A DNA stretch of 64,000 nucleotides, from contig CAJVGD010000042.1 of the NCBI GenBank assembly GCA_910890315.1, positions 1,922,001 to 1,986,000 on the forward strand. The letters run 5' to 3'. The position numbers and the translations under genes are program-made. The stretch is from Serendipita indica DSM 11827 (taxonomy: Eukaryota; Basidiomycota; Agaricomycetes; Sebacinales; Serendipitaceae). Below the pieces are notes generated by a model. It was not told the origin of the DNA. It was given only the letters and a program-made list of their open reading frames with translations, and did no database searches. The first letter of the stretch is position 1; each line of letters starts with the position of its first letter. Shown one piece after another: positions 15,094 to 62,698 of this stretch.

Positions 15094-17446
15094 ATGCAAC
15101 ATGCAGCCAGGAGCCGCAAGCGCACCCACAGCGACAGGATGCCATTGGCATATCTTGGTTCGACCATGATCCACGACCCATCCACGGTCGCTGCTGCCTC
15201 CCAGACGGGCCCAGAGGACTTTGAAGACGCTTTGATTGCACCTCCCGCGCTCGACAACCATGTCCTGGATGTGCCCCATCCCTCGACGGCGCCCAAGACT
15301 CCCCCCGCACTCCTCTCGCCCGCCGACTTGCCCGCAGATCCAAAGCAAGCTGTCTGGGCAATTGCTGCAAACGCAAAACAACAGTCCTCGAAGCGTGCCC
15401 AGTCGTCCAAGCAAAAGCCCGGCCAGGCGACCCAGCAGCCCACCATTTCCACTTTTTCCACCTTTAATCACATTCACATTGTCCAGCCATATGTTCACAA
15501 TGGTGGCAATAGCAACACCAACACCCACCCCAACGCGGCGGCGGCGGCGGCGGCGGCATCGTCGAACAAGGAAGAGACTGCCAACGGCTGTAGCACGTCG
15601 ACGTTTAGCATCAATGCCTCGACCCCTTATACGTTTGCAAATCCATTCTGCACCAATGCCCTGCACACAATGCTCCCAGGCCCAGGCGGCAAGCCAAAGG
15701 ATTCCGCCACCAACATTGCCGGTCAGCCACCCCGACCTGCAAACGCCTGGATCTTGTATCGCTCGGACAAGATGAAGAATCTCGCCCCCGAACCAGGCAA
15801 ACCACGCCGTCCGCAGGCCGACATTTCAAAGCTCATCGCCGAAATGTGGAAAAACGAAAAACCAGAAATTCGTCAGCAGTACGAGGCTCTCAGCGACCTC
15901 AAAAAGGCAGAGCATCTCGCCATGTACCCTGGCTATCGTTTCCAACCGATGAAAAAGGCCGACAAGGAAAAGGTCCGCGCCGAGCGCAAGGCGGAAAAGG
16001 AAAAAGAGAAAATGGCCGCGAGTCTGTCGATGAAGAGCTATCGCCGACCTCCAAAGTCGAAACGTGGCGCGACCGAAGAAGGAGACGACCACGACACCGC
16101 CGCCGACGATTCGACACCTACCCCTTCGCTCGGTCCGACGTCCCCGACCAGCACTGCGCCAGGAACGGCCATGTTTGTCTGGACGCAGCCACAGACGGTC
16201 CCAGAGACCAGCGTCGAACCTTCGACGGGCCCCATGTCCCCGACCGCGCGCCAACACACGGCCTCGTATCAACCATATGCCAGAGCGCCAGCAGGTGCTT
16301 CGACATCGGCGGTTGCTGCTACTGCGAAGCGCAAACGCGCTCGGACAAAGGTCGAGGTTTCCGCTCCTGCCATTCCCTCGGGAGAACCGAACCAGGTGCG
16401 TGTCTCTCTGTCCTCGTCGTTCATTATGACTGTACCCGGTCCCTGTCTGGTTGCCTGCATTCGGTTTGCACATTCCCTCCGCCATCTTCCACCCCGTCAT
16501 TTCTCACGCTATTCATTATCGACTAACGAGCCTTTTTGTATAGGCTCATGGGTTTGACTATACTGGCCCTGTACCCAACACGTCGTTTTCGTTTTACGAA
16601 GCTGCTCAACAGCCACAAGAGTCTCCCGGTCTCATCGACTTTGCGGCCTATAGCGCTCAGTTTATGCCCGGATACCATCCAGCGATTCCTCAGCCGTCGA
16701 GTGGTGCGAATCCTGATCATAATTCTCATCCGACGCCGCCATACAATGCCACCATTGAGCACGAGATGCAGTCCACCGCTGGCTTTGCCCTTGAGCCGAT
16801 CAGAGGTCACAATGAAATCTTCGAGTTTACCAATCTCGATCTCTCCCTCCTCGACAACCAAGAAATTGCCGTCACGCTTCCAGACGATTTGCAGTTTGAC
16901 CTTGGGCTTGGACTTGGACTCGGAACCGATGCCTTTGGCCTCGACGGTGGAGGATTTGCCGAATTTGGAAGTTTGGCGATGGATTCTGGAGGTAGCTTGG
17001 GCTTTGGCACCAACAAGGTGTCGGCAGACATGGTTCAGTTTGACGCACCCCCGTATAACGCTCATCCAAACCTCTCCATATCCACCCAGATTCTTCAACA
17101 GCAACCAGGGCACCACTCGGATCCGTACAATGTCACTTCGCCAATGGAAACACCCCAAGCTGCCACCAACTTCTACGGCTTTCCGATGCATCAGCCGCAG
17201 GAGCAGCAACCAGCACTGTATCATACGGCTCAGCACAGCTTTGGCCAGCACGACTTTGCTTCGTCGTCGTTTGGGGCCTATACGTCTCCCAACCAACCCT
17301 TCCTCTCGCCGACCTATGCGAGCCCACCGCCCTTGTCAGTCATTGACGAATCGTCGACCATTGGTTCACCCACGAGCGAGACCTTTGGCTCCTCTCAGCA
17401 AACTGCCAGGACCGGCCGAAAGGCTACCATGAACAGCTGGCGATAG
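15094..17446 (+). CDS. HMG-box transcription factor (MATA_HMG/Rox1-Ste11 type)
   Basis: Seen: two exons (15094-16395 and 16544-17446) joined at a GTGCGT..TATAG intron of 148 bases give 734 residues. The HMG box spans about residues 214-283. It has PRPANAWILYRSDK at its start, a middle WKNEKPEIRQQYEALSD and an end MYPGYRFQP, then a highly charged Lys/Glu stretch. Eight consecutive alanines from a GCG repeat lie near residue 150. The C-terminal half is Gln/Pro/Ser-rich with an LGLGLGLG repeat and looks like an activation region. Known of the family: fungal proteins with this box bind the minor groove of AT-rich DNA and control mating, filamentous growth or stress genes. Inference: sequence-specific regulator, target unknown. 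No homeodomain or pheromone genes sit beside it, so it need not belong to a mating-type locus. Confidence 0.85.
15535..15558 (+). repeat. GCG trinucleotide repeat coding for eight alanines
   Basis: Seven GCG codons and one GCA encode eight alanines inside the HMG-box protein, before the DNA-binding domain. Length is likely to vary between strains because such runs slip. It stays in frame. Confidence 0.9.
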
Positions 17447-21863: not shown

Positions 21864-24800
21864 ATGGTTAGTGATGTCTGCCAACGCGAGATCAACGCGC
21901 CGATATATGATAAACGTAGGCTCCTACCAAGAAAGCTGGCAAGAAGACTGCCACGCCGCAAGAAAAGAAGCGAGGAGGTGCGACCAAAGTGGCAAAGGTA
22001 AGCGTTGCAGCGCTGAGCGCATTCAAGATGGACAACGCTGACGCATACTAGGCAGATTGGAAGGAGGATTCAAGAAGAAACAAGTTGGCGTGTCTGATAT
22101 GACGTTGCTCACGACCATCAGCAACGAGGCCATCAACGACAATCTCCAGAAACGCTGGACCAATGGCGAGATCTACACGTATATTGGCGCGGTGTTGATC
22201 TCCGTGAATCCATTCCGAGGTTTGTACACCCAGATAGCTGTTCACAGACGCGATGGCTGACAGAACCCAGACCTCGGCATTTACACAGATGAGATTGTCA
22301 ACCGGTACAAGGGCAAGAATCGCCTGGAGATGCCTCCACACGTCTTTGCGATTGCAGAAGGCGCCTACTACAACATGCAGGCCTATAAGGAGAATCAGTG
22401 CGTGATCATTTCCGGCGAGTCTGGCGCTGGAAAGACAGAAGCCGCGAAACGGATCATGCAATATATTGCTGCAGTATCCGGAGGCCAGGATAGTTCTATC
22501 CAGGAAATCAAGGACATGGTGCTGGCGACCAATCCTCTCCTCGAAAGCTTTGGATGCGCAAAGACATTGAGGAACAACAACTCTAGTCGACACGGAAAAT
22601 ATCTAGAGCTCATGTTCAACGATCGAGGAGAACCCGTCGGCGCCCAAATCACCAACTATCTCCTCGAGAAGGGCGCGTCGTCGGTCAGGTGGACAATGAA
22701 CGCGACTTTCACATCTTCTACCAGTTCACAAAGGCTGCCAGTGATGAGCAACGTGACATGTTTGGCTTGCAAGGACCCGAATCCTACGCCTATACCAGCC
22801 GCAGCAATTGCCTTTCTGTACCCGGTATCGACGATACCGTTGATTTCAAAGAAACTCTCAAAGCAATGCAAGTCATTGGACTCTCAAACGCCGAACAGCA
22901 GGAAATATTCAGGATGCTGGCGATCATCCTATGGCTCGGGAATGTCCAGTACGACGAGATGGACGATGGAAACGCCAAGATTTCGGATACAGGTGTGACA
23001 GATTTTATTGCATATCTAATGGAGACGGACGCCGCAGCCGTGGAGAAGTGTATGACTACAAGAGTGATGGAGACTACTCGAGGGGGACGTCGAGGTCAGT
23101 ATCCTTGGACAGCTACTTGAATCGCTTCTGAGTTTCCCTAGGATCCGTGTACGATGTACCTCTTAACCCTGCACAAGCTTCGTCAGGTCGTGACGCCCTT
23201 GCAAAGGCCATCTACAACAATCTTTTGAGTGGATAGTGTCTCGTGTCAATGTTTCAATGAAGCCTAGGACTGCCCACACTCAGGTTATTGGCGTCTTGGA
23301 CATCTACGGCTTCGAGATCTTCCAGGTATATTCATCAACCTCGCTTTCGGTGGCTAACCCCGCATAGGACAATAGTTTCGAGCAACTTTGCATCAACTAC
23401 GTCAACGAGAAGCTTCAACAAATCTTTATAGAGCTCACCCTCAAGGCGGAACAGGAGGAATATGTTCGAGAGCAAATCAAATGGACCCCAATCAAATATT
23501 TCAACAACAAGATTGTATGCGACCTGATCGAGGAACGAAAGCCTCCAGGAATCTTCGCCGCTCTCAACGACGCTACAGCCATCGCCCACGCCGATCCTAC
23601 AGCAGCAGACGATTCGTTCATCCAGCGTTCAGCCGCTCTATCCTCGAATCCACACTTCGAGTCACGAGGTGCTCAATTCCTCGTGAAACATTATGCAGGT
23701 GACGTAATGTACAACGTCTCTGGAATGACGGACAAGAACAAGGACGCCTTGATCAAGGACCTCTTGGATCTCGTCGCTGGTAGTAGCAATAAGTTCCTCA
23801 ACGAGCTCTTCCCTGATAGACCGGATCCAAACAGTAAGAAGAGACCACCAACCGCAGGTGACAAGATCAAGGTACGAAAAGCATTTCCTCCGGGCACGAA
23901 TGGACTTGACCTCGTTTACTAGACATCAGCTGGCGCACTAGTTGATAATCTCATGCGTGCACAACCCTCGTACATTCGTACAATCAAGTCCAACGAAAAT
24001 CGAAGCCCAACCGAATACGATTCCAAGGCCATTCTACACCAAATCAAGTATCTTGGGTTGCAAGAGAACATTCGCGTCAGACGAGCCGGATTTGCGTACC
24101 GTAATACATTTGAGAAGATGATAGAGCGCTTCTACCTCCTCTCTCCTGCTACATCCTACGCTGGTGACTATATTTGGCAAGGGGATGCTAGGTCAGGATG
24201 TGAGCGTATCCTGAAGGACACTGGCATCGCGAAGGAAGAATGGCAAATGGGCGTCACCAAGGCATTCATAAAAACCCAGAAACAGTGCGTATAGAGCTCT
24301 CATACATTACCCAGCTCACTCGTTAAAGCTATTCGCGCTCGAGACTATGCGAGACCGATATTGGCACAACATGGCATCTCGCATCCAGCGCGCTTGGAGA
24401 AATTATTGGCGGTATAAAAACGAGTGCGCGACGCGCATCCAACGGTTCTGGAAGAATAATAAGGAGGGTCTGGCGTACGCTGAAGTTCGTGATTACGGAC
24501 ACACCATCCTCGGCGGACGCAAAGAGCGCAGGCGCTATAGCTTGCTAAGTTATCGTCGCTTCATGGGTGACTATCTTGACGTCGGAAAGGCGAAGAGCCC
24601 GCTTGGGGAGACAATTCGCAACGCATGTGGTCTCTCCAATGAGACTGTACTTTTCAGCGCGCGATCACAGCTGCTAGTATCCAAACTTGGAAGATCTAGC
24701 AAGCCAAGTCCTCGCTATCTTGTCCTGGTATGTGGCCGCACTCTCTGGACTGTTCAATATTCAGCATTCTTTAGACGGATAAGGCTGTCTATATTGCCGT

Positions 24801-31134: not shown

Positions 31135-34100
31135 TCAAGGCGTCGAGAGGAGCTTGTTTAAGGCTCGTTGGAAGCTGTATCCAGTCGCTTCGAGGGCTTC
31201 GATAGCTTGTTCCCGGTTGAAGCCATACTCCATCAATTGTTTCAATGCAGGAACGTCGCCGTCTTCAGCAACAGTTCCCAGCTCCCCCGTCTCCAGACGC
31301 TCCATCGAGTAGCCCGTGGGGATACTTGGGACAGGCGGTGGCATGACCCCGCCATGTTCTTCACGCCCCTGATGTTCCTTGGCATGTTTATCCTTCTTCT
31401 CCTTATCCTTCTTCTCCTTGGAGCTCTTGGATCTTCCAAAGGGGAAATGAATGCTCAGTCGTGAGCTACGAGACGGGCCAGCAGAGTCGGGTGTAAGCGT
31501 GCTACCGGGGCGGGCCGAAGCCGATTCCTTTGCAGGACGAGGTCGAGCGGCGGGGATCTTTGGAGAGGATGTTCGTGGAGGAGGAGACGTCGCACGTGCA
31601 GACGATGACGACCCTCGCACGGCGGTAGGTGATTCGCTTCGAATCGATGATCCATTCTGGCCGACACCATTGCTCGTCTGAGCAGTGTTGTGGGTATGTG
31701 TTGTCGTGGTCGGCGATTCAGGGGCCACAGCCGGGGCTGAGGCTGCAATCGGCATTGTGGGTGCTGGCTGGGGAAACGATGGAGCCGCAGTGGGCTCAGT
31801 TGTTTCGACGTCAAAGGCGTCATCAAAGGAGAGCGGTGTGGCGGCTACGGCTGGGGCTGGGGCGGTATTTCCTCCCACGGGAGCAGCAGCAGGGGAGAGA
31901 CCAAAGGCCTCGTCAAAGGCCGCAGAGGGTGGTACGGAGGTATTGGGCATTGGCATGGTAATCTCGTTCGATTTGTTTCGAGCATGCGTAAACGACGAGT
32001 CACCAAAGTCAAATGTGTCGTCAAAATTGTCAAACTTGAAAGATTGTTCAGCAGTCGCCGCTGCTGTTGGCTGTTGAGGCTGAGTAGGAAGAACGCCCAT
32101 CGCTTCATCAAAAGCGCTCGCCGCCGAAATCCCTGGAAGGAATGTGAGTTTTACGGATAGCATGCAACAAGGGTACATACCAGTGGCGTGTCCATTGACT
32201 GTCGGTTGAATAGGTTCAGTGGAGACCGACGGCGAGCTCAGGACCTTGTCGGAGCCAATAGTGCTAAAGTGAGAGCTCGGTCCTGTGGTTGGTGCCGAGG
32301 CGTCTACGGCCGGAAAGCCAAAGGCATCCGCAAAGGACGTATCGGTTCTTGGTGCTGCTGCTAGTTGAGATGTAGATGCAGCGGCCGCAGCCTTGATATC
32401 CTCTTTGACCTGTCCAAGCGGCTTCTCGTCTTCATCGGACGAGCTATCATCGGCGTCCTTTTCCATTTCCATAGGCGGCAGTTCGTCCGCTGTGCCCTTT
32501 CTGGCGGCTGGCACATCAGACAATGCCGGGAACCTGCTGGTGGAGGAATCTTCCTTCTCCACAAAGAGTGATTCCATGGGCTGGTAGCGAGTTGTTTCCG
32601 CGGCAGACGTCCCTGGAGGAGTGAAGAATGTTTCCGAGGGAGATGCCGCTGTTTCTGGAACCGTCGACGTCGGGGAAGCGACATTATCTTCAAACAGGGC
32701 GTCAAAGCCTAGAGACGTCTGCTTAGCCGTCTCGGTAACCGGAGGTTTTGTCGGAGTCGCGTCCGCAGCATGACTATCCATCTCGTTGAATCCAAACGGA
32801 TCGTCCTCGTCGACCGACTTTGCCTCGGCTACTAGAGCCTGCGGTGCGAACGGAGACGCTGTCCTCTGAGGAATCGATGTGTCAGAGGCAACGCTGCCCT
32901 TCCTGAGACGATCGAATGGGTTGTTACTCTTTGACGAAAGCGCTGGGCTAGCGACACCGGATACATCTGCGAATGGAAGCGCGGGACTTGCAGCAGGAAT
33001 GGGTGGCGAGATCGCCCTACTGCTAGGCTCTACAGGTGCCGGGCTGGTTGAGACGCCCGCTGGAGCGCCATTTGCCAATGTCGCAGGTTTAGTTTCGGGT
33101 GACTTTAGATATGCAAGCTCCGACTCCGCTTGAGCAACTTCTTCCTCTGCTTTGGTGGCCTCCTCCCTAGCTTCGGCCAACTCGTTTGAGGCTGCCTCCT
33201 TCTCAGCTTCGGCAGTCTGGAGCTGTTTCTTGGCAATCGCAAGTAGTCCCTTCTGCATCCTCGCGTCCTTTTTCGCCTGTTCAATCTCCTTTTTGATCGC
33301 TGCCGTCTCCTCGATGACCTCCGCCAGACGACGCTTGAGTTCGCGAACGTCGTCCTTCTCACGGAGAAGATTCCCACCAATTTCGGCCTTTTCAAGCTTG
33401 ACTGCGCTGAGGTCGCTCTCCGCAGTGATGAGTTGCTCGCGGGTAGTTTGAATCTCTTTCGCCTGCGTTTGATATCGTTCTCGTAGACCGGCCAGCAATT
33501 TGGTCTCGGTATCAAAGCCGACTTTTGCGGAGGCGAGCTGAGTTTGCAATTGGGAGAGCGTCGCAGCCGACGTTGCAAGGTCGGATTCCAGCTTGGCCCT
33601 TTCATCCTCTGCACTTGCTTGTGCGGCAGCAGTCGACGCGAGTTGGTTTCGTACATTGGCAATCTCCACGCTGTTCTGTGCGAGCTGCTTTTGTTGACGC
33701 TCTTCTGCTTCTTCGTCATCAAGGAGATCCCGTCTGACTGAAGGTCGGATAGTGGAGGAAGGAGCGGGAACTAGTTTGGTAAGTCGAGTGAATAGGGTGC
33801 CAACGGAGAAACATACCAGGAGGAGTCTGAACATTGGGATTGAGCGCACTCGCCGAGATCTGCGAAATGACCGGGACAGGAGGTGGAGATGCTACCTTTT
33901 GCGGCGGAGTTTGCACAGGAGCTTGTACTGCGACATCGTCGTCTAGTGAGAGCAAGTCACGATGGGTCTCTGACAGGACAGGCATCGATGAAGCGGCTTG
34001 GAATTGAGACGCGCTAAGTCTCATGGACGGAGGAATCAATGTCGGTGGTAAAAATTCTGGGAGCTCTTTGCCTTCGAGCACCTTGTTAATGAGATGCATT

Positions 34101-54773: not shown

Positions 54774-57697
54774 TCAGGGAGAAGGCACAAGATTTAGGTT
54801 TTGCATCGCTCGGCTTAGGTCCCATTCTCTTGATGACCACTTCTCCTGAGCCTCCTTTGGCGTATTGCCTTGCCGTACCAACTCCTCCATTCCACTGACC
54901 GCCGCGTCAAAATCGCATCCCAATGCACGAAGTGCCAGAATTGTGTAGTGGAAGAAGTCTGGCTCGTGTCCGTGTGTGCTACGAAGCATCTCTAAGCCGC
55001 TAATCACAGCGGTGAAGTCATATTCTTTGCTCTCTAATGCCTGCAGCGCTGCGCGGAACGTCTTGTTGACCCTGCTCCTGTCTCCCAACTCGCGATCCAC
55101 GCTCGCGATGATATCTTTGATCCTCTGCGCACCATCGAGCACAGCCTCGACGTCAAAGTCCAACTTTTCCACCAATGACCAGGCGTACTCGTAGAAAGCA
55201 GGTGCCTGCCACGGTGCGCGTCCAAAGAGCTCAGAATATCTCTTACACGCTCTCTCTGTGCGTTCTGAGTTGAAGCCATATTTGGCAAGGACCTGGAGGA
55301 CGATCCCGAACGCTTTGGGACCTACCACGCTCGCTTTGAGCGCGGCTATTCGCTGCGTAGTCGTGCGCAGGTCGTACGAACGGTTCTTCAGGAAAAGATC
55401 TGCAATGACCCAGTCCGCAGGACTGACGTCCGTGCCCATGGCGTTGCCCATAGCTTCAAGCAGCTCTCGTATTCCCTCCTCTTGTTGGTCACGCACTTGA
55501 GACTTGAGCAGTGCAAAGGCTCCCGCACGCTCTCGAACCGTTGAGCCCAGCAACTGCCACATCCTATCTCTGCTCGACCCTTTGGCGACGAAAATCTCGA
55601 CAAGGAACTCAAAATCGGTGTCAAGAGGGTGAATGCTCTTTAGCCACTTGAGTTGGTCGGCCGCGGTGACGAAGCTGAAGTCACAGCCAACAACGAGACC
55701 TGGTATCAGGTAGTAATAGTCTTCCTTGACCATCGTCGTCATCTCCGCCAGGGCGATGAAGATGTCATCTATGCTGAATTGGTTCGAGATGAGCGTCACT
55801 AGGACAGCGCGAATGTCTTGGAAGATAGTCCGTAGGAGTTGAATACCCCTTATTGTCTTCTGAAAGTCGCACATGGATCGGCGGAGTGTCTTCAGGAGAA
55901 TACCTTGGTTGACGGTCGACTCTGCTACGTCGCAGAGGAATTGAATCTCCGTGACTGTTTGTTGATAGTTGTATTCATTCACTTCAAGCAGTTGAAGTGA
56001 GACCGAAAACTGGAGGGATACGGCCTCTGGGTCCGGCTGTGCGATTTGGAGACCCGGAATGTTGATGCTGAGAGTGTTTGCTTTGTAGCCTTTGAGCTGG
56101 CTGAGTTGTGACTTTGCCATTTGGATGCTGTAATCGTGACGCTCCAACACAGATAGAAGCCTCGTGTAGTCGCGCTCACCGACACCCAGGTCTTTGTACG
56201 CCTTGAGGTCAATAAGGGCAGATTCGCTGTATCCCTGCTTCTCGAAGTATTTCATCGAGCGCGAGAAGTCTTGTGGCACGCTACAGATCTCCTTGATATC
56301 TTTGACCAGTTGCTCCGTCTTGGCCATGTCGTATCGATTGGCTTTGAGAAGAGCGAGGATATGGTCGTAGTTCTCCTCTGATGCAACGTCATGAAGAGCA
56401 GTGAGCTTTTCTATTGTTTGTGTGATGTTGTAGCCGAGTTCTGCTAGGACTACAAGAGCCGTTTTGTATTGCTCTTCCGAGCCCAATGCTCGGAGTTTGC
56501 GGAGCTGATCAGCGACAACGGAGATATCATTCCCGTTGCGGACGATGGCTGAGTATGCAACAGGATAGTTCTCCGGTCCGCCAAGCTCCTCCAGCATTTT
56601 GAGCAGCGCCATGACTTCGCCACGGGTTATTCCGCTCGTAGCAGCCATGCGCAGAATTTCATGCTCTGGGATGATGAGGTTGGAGATGAGAGCTGATGGA
56701 GGTTGTGGCGTCGCGGATGTTCCAGTAGGGATAGGTTGAAGTGGTTGCATCGGTTGCAGGGGCTGTAACGTGGAATGCAGGGATTGCATTGACTGCATAG
56801 CTTGCAACTGGAGCCCTTGGGTCCCAAATGGCGCCAATTGAACAGGAACTTGATACACGCCGTCGGCGATTTGTACGAGCTGTGGTTGTATAGGTGCAGC
56901 TCTGGAGGGCGTCCGGGCACGAGGCCGTCTGCTGGAATGAGCCGCCGCATCTTCTTCGAGGTAGCGTCGATATACGTCCGATTGAAGAATCTCGTCCTCA
57001 AAGTTGTGGTTCGAAACAAATGAGCGATCGTCGTCTCCAAAGATGCTCCTCGTATAGCAATTGGTAGGTTCTATCCGGCGAGTTGAGGCCCGGGTGTTGG
57101 AACGTGCCAGGTTGGCACGAACAGTCATGGCGTCTGAGTTGATCTTCATCATTCGTTTTCGGTTCTGCTTTAGGAGAGTGTGGATCTCCTCCATGGAATC
57201 ACTTTTGACTACGTTAGTCGTGAGGAGCACCGGGACGATACGACTCACAGAGTAAATGCGTGCAAGAGTAATTGAAGTGCTTGGTGTTGACCCCTGAGCT
57301 GCCCAAGATAGTTGTTCATCTCTCCTTCGTTCCAGAGAAACCGAACTCTTTCGGCCTTGGACATATTGGCGGTCACTGCACCGTTTATCGGACCGGAGAT
57401 GTTGGAATCCAGCTTCTCTATCTCTGCTGTAACGGCTTCGAGGGTCACAGCGCAGCCTTGAAGCGCGCACTCGAGACCCTTCTGAAGCGCCGACCCTTGT
57501 ACTATTCTGGATCGCCTGTCATCCGTACCTAAGGACTTGACGTGGTTTAAAGCCACGGATAGGACATTGCACTCGTTGATCATAGACGAAAGTGTTTGGT
57601 TGGCGCCGATATAGTTTAGTCGGAGCTCATTGAGCTTTACACCAGCCTTTGCGGCACCCGCGACGAGCGATACGATCGTGAATGGATCCGCAACCAT
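54774..57697 (-). CDS. Protein with NLR-type fungal N-terminal domain and about 16 repeats of 33 residues
   Basis: Seen: two exons (57697-57249 and 57201-54774, 47-base intron) give 958 residues. Residues 1-125 (MVADPFTIVSLVAGAAKAGV to about FLWNEGEMNNYLGQLRGQH) resemble the fungal N-terminal domain of STAND proteins (PF17111 type). Residues 150-330 hold basic helices and a Gln/Pro/Met-rich linker with repeated MQPLQPIP-like words. From about 357 to 955 a helical repeat recurs, of the type xxxYxxALxxLxxxGYDIxx followed by TxxxLxxLxxx; examples are LAELGYNITQTIEKLTAL, LLKANRYDMAKTEQLVKD, LESKEYDFTAVISGLEML and LRALGCDFDAAVSGMEEL. The usual spacing is 33 residues. No NACHT/NB-ARC, WD, ANK or TPR motif is visible. 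Inference: a repeat-based sensor or scaffold without a nucleotide switch. Function unknown. Confidence 0.75.
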
Positions 57698-58257: not shown

Positions 58258-59825
58258 ATGTCATGTTTGAGAATGCTAGTCATCCTTGTGGCCTCATTCG
58301 CAGGGGCTGTCCGTACACGTCAAGACCTTCCTGGACTGTATACTCTCGAATCGTACGTACTCTTGTCCGTTGTCTACACCTTGGCGTCCGGTATGGAAAC
58401 TGATGTGAACAGCCCCTCTGCGGCGCACCTGCGCCCTCAGCACGAGAGCGACCATTTGTTGTTCTTTTGCATATAAAGTCCTGGATGATCATTTAGATTC
58501 GTGATTTCGACTCTGCGGTGGCTATTTCAGCGGGAGAAAGTGGGTATATTTCGTCATTACGAGTCGTACTCCTTCAGATGGCTTCAAGTTTATATATACG
58601 GGTAAGGAATCTATGGAAATACTCGTCGAATCCTGATATATATTCGTAGAATATCGAGCCAACATCGAGTAGGACACTTTCGACCCGCAGTGCGGACTCA
58701 AGAGAGACAAATGTCGGTCTGTTGATATCTGCCGCGGTAATACTTCTACTATTGGGCCTGTTATTGTATTTCACGCGGCAGACCGAGGGGAGGAGGGCGT
58801 CAGTGGCACATCTACAGCGATTTCTCTACTTTATCATCTCTCGGCTGGGCCGAGCCCGATCCAATATCTCTACCAGGATAAGACGATCGTCCGTATTTCG
58901 TTCTTATTCTGTTCAAGGACTTCCTTCCGTCGTTACGCCTTGGATGCCGAGGGGGATCGAGGTCTCCCAAACAAGAGCTGCGATTTGCCCCAATGGAACC
59001 GCTGATAGAGTCACTTTGACCGCAGCACGTACATCAGCAAAACTCTATCAACGTGCTGCATACCCAGCACCTTCGACACCCAACCCCGACGTTATGGGAT
59101 CGCGGAACTCTATGGTATTACCAAGACGTGGCTCTGGCCCAATGCCATCACTCCTTCAGGGCGCAACTGGGACCATGAATCCCCAGCAGCGTCGGACTTC
59201 GTATGTCAACTCGAACCAGGAGGCATCTACTGCTAGTTCCAGTAGACAATTGGAAGAAGTGTCTACCCCCCAAGCCGGTCCTATCCCCAACGTGTCGGGT
59301 AGCAGATCGCAAGCACCATCATTTCATCATTTGATCACTCTCACTGATACCGTTCATTCATTGAATAATGATGCTCCTATGGCTGTGCGACCGCCGTCTG
59401 GAGAACCTCAAGCCTCCATGTCGAATACGAGATCGTCAGACATCCAGGGAAAGCAGAGGAGAATACGAGCTGGTCTCAGTATATTCATTCCTCCTCGTCT
59501 CGCCTCCCCGCCGCCTCCATATACGCCCGAAGATACAAGTCCCTTTCGGTTCTCACCTTATGAGTATTCTCCGTCGGAATATAGAGTCGATACAAGGGTA
59601 ATGGGTGACTCTTTCATCACTGCTCCAAGTCCAATCGCGCTTCCGGCTCGGCGTGGTTCACGACCTCTTCCGGCCGTTCATCGTCCATCAATTCTGGGCG
59701 AGCGAAATCATTCTAGATGGTTCTCGACATCGAGGCTACTCGACGACCACGTTATATGTCACCAATCAACCTCAGGATTCATCTCTCGACCGCGGGGTCA
59801 CAGTCTTAGCGCTGGACAATACTGA
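58258..59825 (+). CDS. Predicted type-I membrane protein with long disordered tail
   Basis: Seen: an ATG at 58258 opens a signal-peptide-like start, MSCLRMLVILVASFAGAV. The last large exon (from about 58652) begins NIEPTSSRTLSTRSAD and carries one strong transmembrane helix, LLISAAVILLLLGLLLYF, then a basic stretch RIRRSSVFRSYS. A tail of about 300 residues, rich in Ser/Pro/Thr/Arg with PPPPYTPEDTSPFRFSPYEY, ends with a stop at 59823-59825. The exon holding the helix has no ATG of its own before the membrane segment, so it must be joined to an upstream exon; the exons between 58360 and 58650 are not settled. Inference: a cell-surface protein with short outside part and long cytoplasmic tail. 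No enzyme domain seen. Confidence 0.45.
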
Positions 59826-59897: not shown

Positions 59898-61138
59898 CTA
59901 TACAGTCCAGCCCAGACGCACGGCTTGAGCAACGAGAGCATGGATCGTTTCCTCCCTTGAATGAGGCGTAATTCCAAATATTCTCTTTGCCTTGGCATCC
60001 GAAACGATATGAGTCGCAGAAGCGCCGTCACCAGACCCGGGGGTGCCCACAGGAAGGCTTAATCCATCAATAGGCTTTGCGTTAAGAATGTCAACTGTAA
60101 AAAGATGAGCAAATCGATCTTCGTACGAGGGGAAAAGGGTGCATACGGGCTTCCTGCCAGCTAACGACGCCACTCATTATAAAGATACGCTCCCCAGCTG
60201 CCTCTGGTGTGACGAGAGCTCTCGTATGGGCAGCAGCGACATCTCGACAGTCGGCATAGGTGGTCGCTTCGAGGTATTCTTCTTTCTTCATTTCCCCAGA
60301 TTTCGCCCTGGAGAGCGCAGATAAAATGACAAAGTTGGATGACTCAGGACGGATATGGTCTCGGCTATTGTAGCGAGATTCCTGGTGTAATGTTAACTAT
60401 GCTCAAAGAAGAAGCAAAAGATGACATACACCCCATACCCAAGGTGGCAGGACCGTCACCAAATCGAACGCTGGTTGGTTCTCTTTCATGTATGCCCATG
60501 CCGCCTTTTCCGCAAGGACCTTGGATGCCATATATTTGACGAATGACGGGGTTTTGGAACCATACTGGGCTATGATTGCTGGTGCCTTGTCGAACCAGTC
60601 ATTCTGGAAGCAAGTCAGAGATAGACAAACAGTATTCAGAGACGCACTTCGGTATAGACATAGCCCTTGTCATGCGGTTCAAGAAGTGTTACGATGGAGC
60701 TCGTCACAACAACGCGCTTGATATCCGTCCCATACTTTTGCGCAGCCTCGAGGACACTTGTCGTGCCTTTGACGGCGGGGACTACAAGCTCCTGGGGATC
60801 GGCCTCTGGATTCGAGGACATCATTGGAGATGCAGAGTGAACAATGGCGTCCACCCCTTTGACGGCGTCCTCGAATGCCTTTGAATCAGTGATATCTGCG
60901 ACGGTAGTGAAAGTGAGTTTGCCGGTGTCAACGTATGACTTGAATGCAGAGATTAAGAGGGACGACTTTGAAGCAGAACGAACGGCTGCTCGAACGTTGA
61001 AGCCGGCTTGGAGTAAGTTGTCGAGAATTGCTCCCCCGACGAAACCAGTGCCACCTGATACGTTATTAGTACACGGCATATTACAGCTGTAAACACACCT
61101 GTGAGCAGGACGGTAGAGCTAGGTGTGACGGCTGGCAT
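59898..61138 (-). CDS. NAD(P)-dependent reductase, extended SDR family, copy 1
   Basis: Seen: start MPAVTPSSTVLLTG, an intron, then GTGFVGGAILDNLLQAGF, the Rossmann TGxxGxxG motif, followed by RAAVRSASK. Then come AVKGVDAIVHSASP, RVVVTSSIVTLLEP (catalytic-region Ser) and the active-site KYMASKVLAEKAAW (YxxxK). After further exons VTVLPPWVWG and AHTRALVTPEAAGERI lead to a C-terminus LVAQAVRLGWTV, stop 59898-59900. Known: this is the dihydroflavonol-reductase/cinnamoyl-CoA-reductase/Gre2 group, which reduces aldehydes or ketones. Substrate unknown. A divergent relative follows directly upstream at 61498-62698 in the same direction. Convergent with the membrane-protein gene before it. Confidence 0.85.
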
Positions 61139-61497
61139 AATCGATAGACGAGGAAGTGCGTGACTGGCGTGACTGGTGATGAGGACTGCTGGAGACCTTC
61201 TTATATCGACCCAGATATCCGATTCGGATAAGTGGCAGAGATAGGGCTTACTTAATGTTCTTCTTTGTGAATAAATTGTTGCTCCGAATCCTTCGGAGCA
61301 GTACACAGGTGGCGACACGCGTACCATTCCAGTTAGAGGCTGTGGCAGATTCTTCCAATGTGATTAGCTAGATGGGCTGTCAGAACGCTCCGTATCTCGC
61401 GGAGTCTCACAGAGAGCGCCCAGTTCTGCCTAAGCTTCCGGAGTGAACGCAAATTTGCTTGATTCTCGGTGAATAAACACTGTGATTGGAGGGAAAT

Positions 61498-62698
61498 CTA
61501 TGGAGACCATCCGAAGTCGCGCGCTTGTGTGATGAAATCGAGAATCGTCACTTCCTTTGGCCGATAAACCATCTTCAGAATCCTTTCAGCTTTCTCTGCA
61601 GAGACATGTTGATCCGGAGTAATGCCTTTGCCGCTTCCAGGATTGCCTACGGGCGCAGCGAGACCGTCAAGCTTTGCCTGGTTGATGATGTCGACTAACC
61701 CAGCCGCTGTCAGTATGAACAATAAAAGAAGAAGAACTGAGCACTGACAGACTTCTTGCCACGTGACTGTGGCACCTTTGAGAACGATGCGTTCCCCTCC
61801 TGCCTCGGGGGTAGTGAGAGCGCGCACATGTCCCTCTGCAATATCGCGAACGTCGGTGATCTCGACAGCTGTCAAATAGTCTGATTCATTGAGCTGTCCG
61901 GATAGACCGCTAGAAATCTTGTTCAGTATCTCAAAGTGTGCTGTCCCTTCACGTATAGAGTCTGGGTTGCCTAGGATGTCCTTTCCCCATACGCGTGACG
62001 GGAGGATGGCGGTATAGTCGAAAGCGGGTTTATTTTCCTCGACCCATTTCCATGCAGCACGCTCGGACACGACCTTGGCCGCAATATAGATGAGCCCGCC
62101 TGTGGCCTTGACACCTTGCTCTTGTACAAGTTTTGGAGCAGTGTCAAACCAGTCTTTCTGTATGATTTTTCGGCATAATTAGGTGATATAACGGAGCGTA
62201 CATACCTCGGTCTGCATGTACTTTCCCTCTCGTGGCTCCCAGAGCGTCACATAGGAACTAGTGGTGATCACGCGCTTAACGGTGCTACTCTTGGACGCAG
62301 CTTCGAGAATCTCGATCGTTGACCCAACGGTGGGAGTGATAATAACATCTGGATGTACTCCTGTGTTGTTCGTAGGCGATGGAGCTGCGCAATGGATGAT
62401 ACCCTCGACGCCTTCAATGGCCTCAGCAAATGCAGCAGGGTGCGCGAGATCTGGGATAACAACAAAGGTCAAGCGCTTTTCCTTGACGGCAGAGGCGAAT
62501 GTCGCGGAAAGGCGAAGGCTTTTTTCCTCTGATCTGGCCACTGCGCGAACAGAGAACCCTTTGGCAAGGAGGTTTTCGATAATGGCAGCTCCGATAAATC
62601 CGGTACTACCTATGCTGATTTTCAGTCGATTGAGAGAACTCTGCGTTCATGTGCATACCGGTGACAAGGATGAGAGCTGGTGGAGTGACGACCGTCAT
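61498..62698 (-). CDS. NAD(P)-dependent reductase, extended SDR family, copy 2
   Basis: Seen: start MTVVTPPALILVTG, an intron, then STGFIGAAIIENLLAKGFSV (TGxxGxxG), EGVEGIIHCAAPSP, RVITTSSYVTLWEP, and the active-site IYIAAKVVSERAAW (YxxxK). Next are AILPSRVWGKDILG, VRDIAEGHVRALTTPEAGGE and, after a 54-base intron (61695-61748), DIINQAKLDGLAAPVGNPG, ending FITQARDFGWSP with the stop at 61498-61500. Same family and intron plan as the gene at 59898-61138, with clear sequence divergence, so an older tandem duplication. The 54-base intron has no in-frame stop; read through it would insert a short hydrophobic run (SVLLLLLFIL). Substrate unknown. Confidence 0.85.

Follow-up and report, generated by a model that had tools for sequence, protein, structure and literature searches.

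A stretch of 64,000 nucleotides from Serendipita indica DSM 11827 (contig CAJVGD010000042.1, positions 1,922,001 to 1,986,000; the window hereafter) carries on its minus strand a gene, 57697..54774, predicted to encode a protein of 958 amino acids. The question raised by this locus is what kind of repeat fills most of the protein, and whether the protein is an immune receptor, since a preliminary description of the DNA had joined an unfamiliar helical repeat to an N-terminal domain of the NOD-like receptor (NLR) type. The repeats are real: the last ~600 residues contain 15 divergent two-helix units, the two helices per unit being predicted. With a probability of roughly 0.45, the protein is read here as a non-enzymatic scaffold or sensor whose solenoid of overlapping units of the ubiquitin-associated (UBA) type binds partners. 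It may thus be a partner-binding scaffold rather than an immune receptor.

Self-comparison of residues 321-958 in the 958-residue protein, a step suggested in the preliminary description, gave peaks at lags of 33, 66, and 67 residues that stand above 300 shuffles (z 3.9, 3.7, and 3.7, respectively). A search made without hand-picked cores reached a best anchor sum of 232, whereas 60 plain shuffles gave at most 53 and another 60 in which the hydrophobic pattern was kept at most 96. Fifteen cores were then placed by eye, and each unit was scored with a profile built from the other 14. Ten of the 15 units exceeded all 300 of their own shuffles and five were weaker. These leave-one-out figures are somewhat favourable because the cores were picked for the motif; the core-free search is unaffected. 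Self-comparison, leave-one-out scoring, and core-free search bear out the repeat that had been described as recurring over about 600 residues. The units, with the number of equally good shuffles where there were any, are as follows.

56490..56597, minus strand: unit 1, core at residue 374; above all 300 shuffles
56391..56498, minus strand: unit 2, core at residue 407; above all 300 shuffles
56292..56399, minus strand: unit 3, core at residue 440; above all 300 shuffles
56190..56297, minus strand: unit 4, core at residue 474; weaker, 4 of 300 shuffles equal
56091..56198, minus strand: unit 5, core at residue 507; above all 300 shuffles
55932..56039, minus strand: unit 6, core at residue 560, behind an insertion of ~20 residues; above all 300 shuffles
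55830..55937, minus strand: unit 7, core at residue 594; above all 300 shuffles
55737..55844, minus strand: unit 8, core at residue 625; weak, 29 of 300 shuffles equal
55644..55751, minus strand: unit 9, core at residue 656; weak, 12 of 300 shuffles equal
55335..55442, minus strand: unit 10, core at residue 759, 103 residues past the core of unit 9; weaker, 2 of 300 shuffles equal
55233..55340, minus strand: unit 11, core at residue 793; above all 300 shuffles
55116..55223, minus strand: unit 12, core at residue 832; above all 300 shuffles
54981..55088, minus strand: unit 13, core at residue 877, the top-scoring unit; above all 300 shuffles
54876..54983, minus strand: unit 14, core at residue 912; above all 300 shuffles
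54783..54890, minus strand: unit 15, core at residue 943, site of the natural-sequence TAP_C match; weak, 35 of 300 shuffles equal

The remaining parts of the predicted gene are these.

57249..57697, minus strand: exon 1, N-terminal helical domain, residues 1-149 and two bases of codon 150; starts at the first ATG behind an in-frame stop, with a GT-AG intron next
57202..57248, minus strand: intron of 47 nucleotides, GTGAGT..CTAAC..AAAAG; of three GT donors the sole one that keeps the 958-residue frame open with this acceptor
54774..57201, minus strand: exon 2, remainder of the N-terminal domain, linker, and all repeats; the single terminal stop is at 54774-54776
56697..57125, minus strand: linker, about residues 176-318, drawn from composition; its second part (residues 236-318) is 55% P/Q/S/T/N/G

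Successive cores are separated by 33, 33, 34, 33, 53, 34, 31, 31, 103, 34, 39, 45, 35, and 31 residues, and the statement that most distances lie between 31 and 35 holds for 10 of the 14. The array proposed earlier stands, but its count of about 16 copies does not: 15 are found, and the gaps lack unit support. Neither residues 515-548, 665-712, and 700-745, where extra units were sought, gained support from the unit profile, nor was a unit found in residues 176-320. The units are divergent, with a mean pairwise identity of 14% and a maximum of 27.8% over 105 pairs. Partly by construction, D, N, or S directly follows the core position in 15 of the 15 units, while a hydrophobic residue at +2, L/I/V/M/F at -5, and A/T/S/V at +5 each occur in 13, and Y/F/W at -12 occurs in 11. 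Between units 9 and 10, whose cores are about three unit lengths apart, residues 670-740 (55431..55643, minus strand) are helical in a low-confidence model and lack unit-profile support; a sub-threshold match to Fis1_TPR_N falls in the same residues.

The helical nature of the units was examined by structure prediction. Single-sequence AlphaFold2 of residues 318-958 (641 residues) reached a predicted local distance difference test (pLDDT) score of 38.3, usable for helix boundaries at most. In this model 12 of the 15 cores fall at a helix-loop-helix junction (random placement gave 4.2 on average and never more than 11 over 2000 trials). For units 1-2, AlphaFold2 was given an alignment of seven rows of the protein's own units, from which units 12 and 15 were omitted. 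It predicted five helices (6-18, 22-34, 39-50, 55-67, and 72-86) with a pLDDT of 84.3 and a predicted TM-score of 0.69, the five models ranging from 75.5 to 84.3. As a prediction, this model reflects the units' own pattern and not independent evolution.

Pfam scans were run down to E≤10, a range in which the HMMER filters lose most matches above about 0.1. Nothing above cut-off was found in Pfam for either exon or for the natural segments, and nothing in NCBIfam at E≤10, in line with the earlier view of a regular two-helix repeat lacking a Pfam match above cut-off. No homologue was confirmed in viral contigs for exon 1 or exon 2, or in genome contigs for exon 2. The unit is a real helical repeat that is unlabelled in Pfam, NCBIfam, PDB, BFVD, and the literature searched, and its novelty is limited to these.

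The best-supported resemblance of the unit, still weak, is to the helix 2-loop-helix 3 corner of the UBA domain, and a UBA link of the units has about even odds. The arrangement in question is the solenoid of overlapping UBAs (SOUBA) of human UBAP1 (PDB 4ae4). In the available text of its description, this is a right-handed solenoid of seven helices and three UBAs, in which the third helix of one UBA is the first of the next (PMC3314968). Its leucine motifs are given at 427, 461, and 495 (PMC3314968), hence spacings of 34 and 34. In profile-profile comparison the repeat scored 19.3 (probability 67%) with a UBA profile of five sequences and 18.1 (49%) with the three UBAs of UBAP1. Neither score was reached by any of its 150 plain or 150 pattern-keeping permutations (highest 13.4 and 12.8).

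One of the unit consensuses, repeated three times head to tail (period 34), was further scanned against 24736 Pfam models. The first family was TAP_C at 1.3e-12 (47.5 bits, cut-off 21.3). Among the best 25 of the 32 families at E≤10, HHH_9 (4.6e-5) came second and UBA_NBR1_C (1.7e-4) third, with the solenoid-related IBN_N (0.03) and PPTA (0.069) lower. Decoys were needed because tandem copies inflate scores, and the best of 10, of equal length and period 33, reached 32.2 bits (1.4e-7). In the natural sequence TAP_C is the best Pfam family of the C-terminal segment (E 0.0048) and is also listed for exon 2 (E 0.0074), both times below cut-off and in unit 15. As positive controls, NXF1 is recognised in Pfam by TAP_C and UBAP1 by UBA families. 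The middle UBA of UBAP1 is not the best stretch of any UBA family listed, and Pfam may therefore miss a genuine overlapping UBA.

Single profiles were also run on known sequences and on the window itself. The unit profile gave 7.3 bits on UBAP1 (0 of 1000 shuffles equal) and 3.2 on NXF1 (19 of 1000); the two-unit profile gave 5.6 on UBAP1 (5 of 1000) and 7.6 on NXF1, which aligned to positions 8-51 of this profile (0 of 1000). When the six-frame translation of the window was searched with the unit profile, the strongest match other than the repeat protein itself was the UBA of the protein at 31138-33849 (E 0.41). On this UBA the unit profile reached 15.3 bits as the sum of two overlapping stretches, and the two-unit profile 17.9 (0 of 1000 shuffles in each case). 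The protein that carries it (31138..33849, minus strand, 904-residue frame) is long, coiled-coil-like by reading, and has a C-terminal UBA (PF00627, E 5.6e-07); it is taken to be Ede1-like.

Other observations weigh against the UBA reading. The signal depends heavily on a single sequence, the Ede1-like UBA, which gave 76% in single-UBA comparisons, compared with 11% for USP5, 7% for NXF1 (2 of 60 shuffles equal), and 7% for the second UBA of UBAP1 alone. A Fis-type helix-turn-helix reached 16.1 and 35% with 0 of 60 shuffles equally good, and since the Fis-type corner scores as well, the corner is common to more than UBAs. The TAP-C profile scored only 12.7 (4%), 1 of 150 pattern-keeping permutations being equally good. 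At default settings the UBA alignment spans 20 columns, helix 2-loop-helix 3 only. Alignments of 34-38 columns were reached by lowering the threshold used with the real profiles, and helix 1 is aligned in them without confidence. The proposal of a shared helix thus rests on spacing and model, not on sequence. The signature (M/L)-G-(F/Y) was not found in the expected loop, the one LGY (residues 405-407) lying in the other loop; the second UBA of UBAP1 also deviates, with KGF.

Sequence searches give further reason for caution. None of the 15 single units of 36 residues matched any Pfam family at E≤10, and two other unit consensuses gave no TAP_C, which makes that result consensus-dependent. Searched against PDB sequences, the consensus that had matched TAP_C found no UBAs but a designed protein, O43_129 (0.00054), as well as designed ankyrins (best 0.0064), and the first matches of the unit profile were designed proteins as well. 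On the side of the UBA reading, the UBA of FAF1 was 15th of 18 with the unit profile (E 1.0) and that of NBR1 9th of 35 among the weak mixed matches of the two-unit profile (E 0.97), both being weak and neither distinctive.

The structural comparison cuts both ways. The confident model covers only 2 of the 15 units and its alignment is self-derived. The comparison with known solenoids that had been suggested at the outset yielded five helices in two units and no significant match, the best Foldseek E values being 1.1 in PDB and 0.75 in BFVD. In favour of the UBA reading, the four TNK1 UBA entries in PDB stood at ranks 1, 4, 7, and 8 (E 1.1-2.0, TM-score 0.31-0.37); the first had E 1.1, a TM-score of 0.34, and a root-mean-square deviation of 9.6, and these entries are fusions with another helical (crystallisation) domain. 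An RNF31 structure was at rank 10, and 11 of the first 20 were Protein A modules or fusions. TM-scores above those of the UBA entries were obtained by the designed helical repeat 5cwg (0.50, PDB rank 25) and by a Tetraselmis virus protein (0.55, BFVD rank 21). UBAP1 4ae4 is absent from the best 50 of the 73 PDB fold matches.

The main rival is a generic alpha-solenoid of helical hairpins with an origin of its own, put to a HEAT- or TPR-like use, which would bind a partner protein and whose likeness to the UBA/Fis corner would have arisen by convergence and would imply no ubiquitin link. This explanation is a serious contender that falls short of an even chance. The natural sequence has no significant fold or family match, 5cwg and the Tetraselmis virus protein surpass the UBA entries in TM-score, and the Fis-type corner fits it too, as do the spacings, which are irregular, with values as high as 53 and a single one of 103. 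Consensuses of TPR, PPR, HEAT, and ankyrin repeats were compared in the same way. Those of TPR, PPR, and HEAT reached 0.3-1.3% in profile comparison. HEAT, at 1.3%, nevertheless beat its shuffles (0 of 60 equal) and gave 0.5 bits with the unit profile (23 of 1000) and 0.9 with the two-unit profile (6 of 1000). PPR had no match with the unit profile and 2.8 bits with the two-unit profile (10 of 1000), again ahead of most shuffles, and TPR had 0.7 bits (276 of 1000) and no match, respectively. Against the generic solenoid speak the UBA-like family at the head of the consensus scan and the 10 of 10 decoys that score below it.

In Pfam no TPR, PPR, or HEAT family was above cut-off, the nearest being Fis1_TPR_N (E 0.00078) and TPR_14 (E 0.65), and no Sel1 family was listed at E≤10. 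Fis1_TPR_N tops the list for exon 2; a TPR reading was rejected, as the match is below cut-off (19.5 bits, cut-off 25) and covers 18 residues outside the units. The earlier judgement that the units are unlike ankyrin, TPR, PPR, HEAT, and Sel1 was upheld: there is no Pfam match above cut-off, and the TPR, ankyrin, and PPR consensuses lie at or near the level of their shuffles, with HEAT low but above it.

For the overlapping-UBA reading, the following arrangement can be envisaged. A flexible linker would connect an N-terminal helical domain to 15 two-helix units stacked as a long alpha-solenoid, each unit packing like helix 2-loop-helix 3 of a UBA-type domain. Helix B of the previous unit, followed by helix A and helix B, would correspond to UBA helices 1, 2, and 3, the last helix doubling as helix 1 of the next unit. 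A face of the solenoid could bind one or more protein partners, the linker would give reach, and the N-terminal domain might be delivered to the site of the partner or gathered there. Ubiquitin is the obvious candidate partner, yet with the signature missing nothing requires it. Should the units prove to be overlapping UBAs, the SOUBA arrangement would count as a repeat family able to extend to long solenoids, and fungi would gain a repeat scaffold besides WD, ANK, and TPR. With the unit profile, members of the family could be sought in fungal proteomes. A 2014 survey, in its available text, leaves roughly half of the N- and C-terminal domains of fungal NLRs without annotation (PMC4986451).

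The N-terminal domain is probably a helix bundle. It had been likened to the domain of fungal receptors of the STAND (signal transduction ATPases with numerous domains) class, a claim that found no backing: at E≤10, Pfam families of the HeLo, MLKL, or NACHT-associated kind did not match residues 1-175 in scans run without a positive control of such a domain, and PDB held nothing relevant (Rho-kinase fragments, E 0.2 and 0.38). Exon 1 alone had no Pfam match at E≤10, and when extended to 211 residues matched only DUF3334 (E 0.027), which is unrelated. The putative likeness to HeLo-like domains is one of general pattern. MLKL-like domains of basidiomycetes have been reported just below threshold in the accessible part of one study (PMC9815663), so a HeLo-like reading may still be right. 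The accompanying statement that no nucleotide-binding domain lies between this domain and the repeats was supported, with no NACHT or NB-ARC match in Pfam and neither a Walker A motif nor a GK pair in the 958 residues.

It is unlikely that the protein is an NLR-like death receptor without a nucleotide switch, in which a membrane-attacking N-terminal domain of HeLo/MLKL type is restrained by the solenoid until a ligand binds. The MVADPFTIVSLVAG start and the hydrophobic head are reminiscent of such domains, but the family and PDB searches above did not return them and amphipathicity is only weak over the first 22 residues (hydrophobic moments of 0.19 and 0.32). Moreover, the repeats are not WD, ANK, or TPR, and their low mutual identity differs from the high internal conservation of many fungal NLR repeats (PMC4986451). 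Fast, concerted repeat evolution, described in the available text for a fraction of fungal NLRs (PMC4986451), is spoken against here because conservation among the units is low. Likewise improbable is a blend of the two views, in which the 15 overlapping UBA-type units, as a rigid run, and a HeLo/MLKL-type head would form a switch-free receptor that recognises ubiquitin or ubiquitin-like chains, or FG-type peptides, over the length of its solenoid and clusters a death or signalling domain on these ligands.

That the gene model fuses two adjacent genes or includes an incorrect intron, so that the N-terminal domain is not part of the repeat protein, is very improbable: the exon joint depends on a single predicted intron of 47 nucleotides, but donor, branch-like CTAAC, and acceptor are all present, the joined frame is open, and the two alternative GT donors give 26 stops each with the same acceptor. 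Least credible are very divergent ankyrin repeats with an NG-Y-D-F loop in place of the ankyrin NG-A-D-V, which would share the 33-residue period and account for the designed ankyrins matched by the consensus, but which have no Pfam ankyrin family for the natural segments or in the best 25 of the 32 consensus families, a profile comparison of 1.3% over 13 columns (1 of 100 permutations equal), and, in the units 1-2 model, loops that are 3-4 residues long at either side instead of the long loop of ankyrin repeats. Because of those designed-ankyrin matches, ankyrin was also tested on the E3_5 sequence. That reading was rejected with E3_5 at background (unit profile -0.8 bits, 216 of 1000 shuffles equal; two-unit profile no match), and the ankyrin consensus gave no match with the unit profile and -2.1 bits (674 of 1000) with the two-unit profile.

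The gene lies tail to tail with one that encodes the acetolactate synthase small subunit, and the other genes in the window are ordinary eukaryotic ones (COG5, mitochondrial carrier, TRAPPC13, myosin head, PX/RGS), which together with the short intron suggest fungal DNA. The myosin head fragment at 22330..22995 (plus strand) has a sub-threshold nSTAND3 match (25.6 bits, cut-off 27.2), presumably due to the shared P-loop. At 60639..62646 (minus strand) two NAD-dependent epimerase/reductase-like genes adjoin, perhaps a tandem duplicate, with PF01370 in all three frames scanned. An HMG-box protein with long low-complexity flanks (PF00505, E 1.2e-12) is found at 15094..16554 (plus strand). At 58650..59822 (plus strand) an open frame of 391 residues, hydrophobic in a segment near its N-terminus, matched nothing in Pfam at E≤0.01.

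Set beside known systems, the protein shares with the fungal NLRs that carry WD, ANK, or TPR, as far as the available text describes them (PMC4986451), an N-terminal domain followed by C-terminal repeats; it differs in lacking a detectable nucleotide-binding domain, in its type of repeat, and in its low internal conservation. TAP_C (PF03943), a UBA-like domain of mRNA export factors, is the best Pfam family of one consensus and of the natural C-terminal segment, but it is a single domain and not an array, and NXF1 is weak with the unit profile and in profile comparison. The TNK1 UBA, modelled with five helices (PMC8429728), tops the fold search, with the difference that the match is not significant (TM-score at most 0.37) and the entries are fusions. 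In the accessible portion of that report, some UBAs fit its N-terminal three helices better and others its C-terminal three, and UBAP1 is the closest match named (PMC8429728).

The SOUBA of UBAP1 bears most directly on the earlier suggestion of an undescribed system. That suggestion goes too far because the unit is most like the UBA corner and an overlapping-UBA solenoid is already a described fold (PMC3314968), while the literature searched, as far as its text was available, yielded no long fungal UBA array. The protein is not filed as a SOUBA because the corner is not UBA-specific, the top UBA score comes from a single sequence, and the signature is missing. It has 15 units where UBAP1 has three, these units show neither the signature in the expected loop nor a significant structural match, and its head domain is another one. 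In common with the SOUBA it has two helices per unit (predicted here), a spacing of ~34 residues approached by 10 of the 14 distances, a helix 3 that serves as the next helix 1 (described there and proposed here), and a profile similarity to the three UBAs above all permutations tried, albeit at a probability of 49%. In these respects the protein resembles a SOUBA and may work like one.

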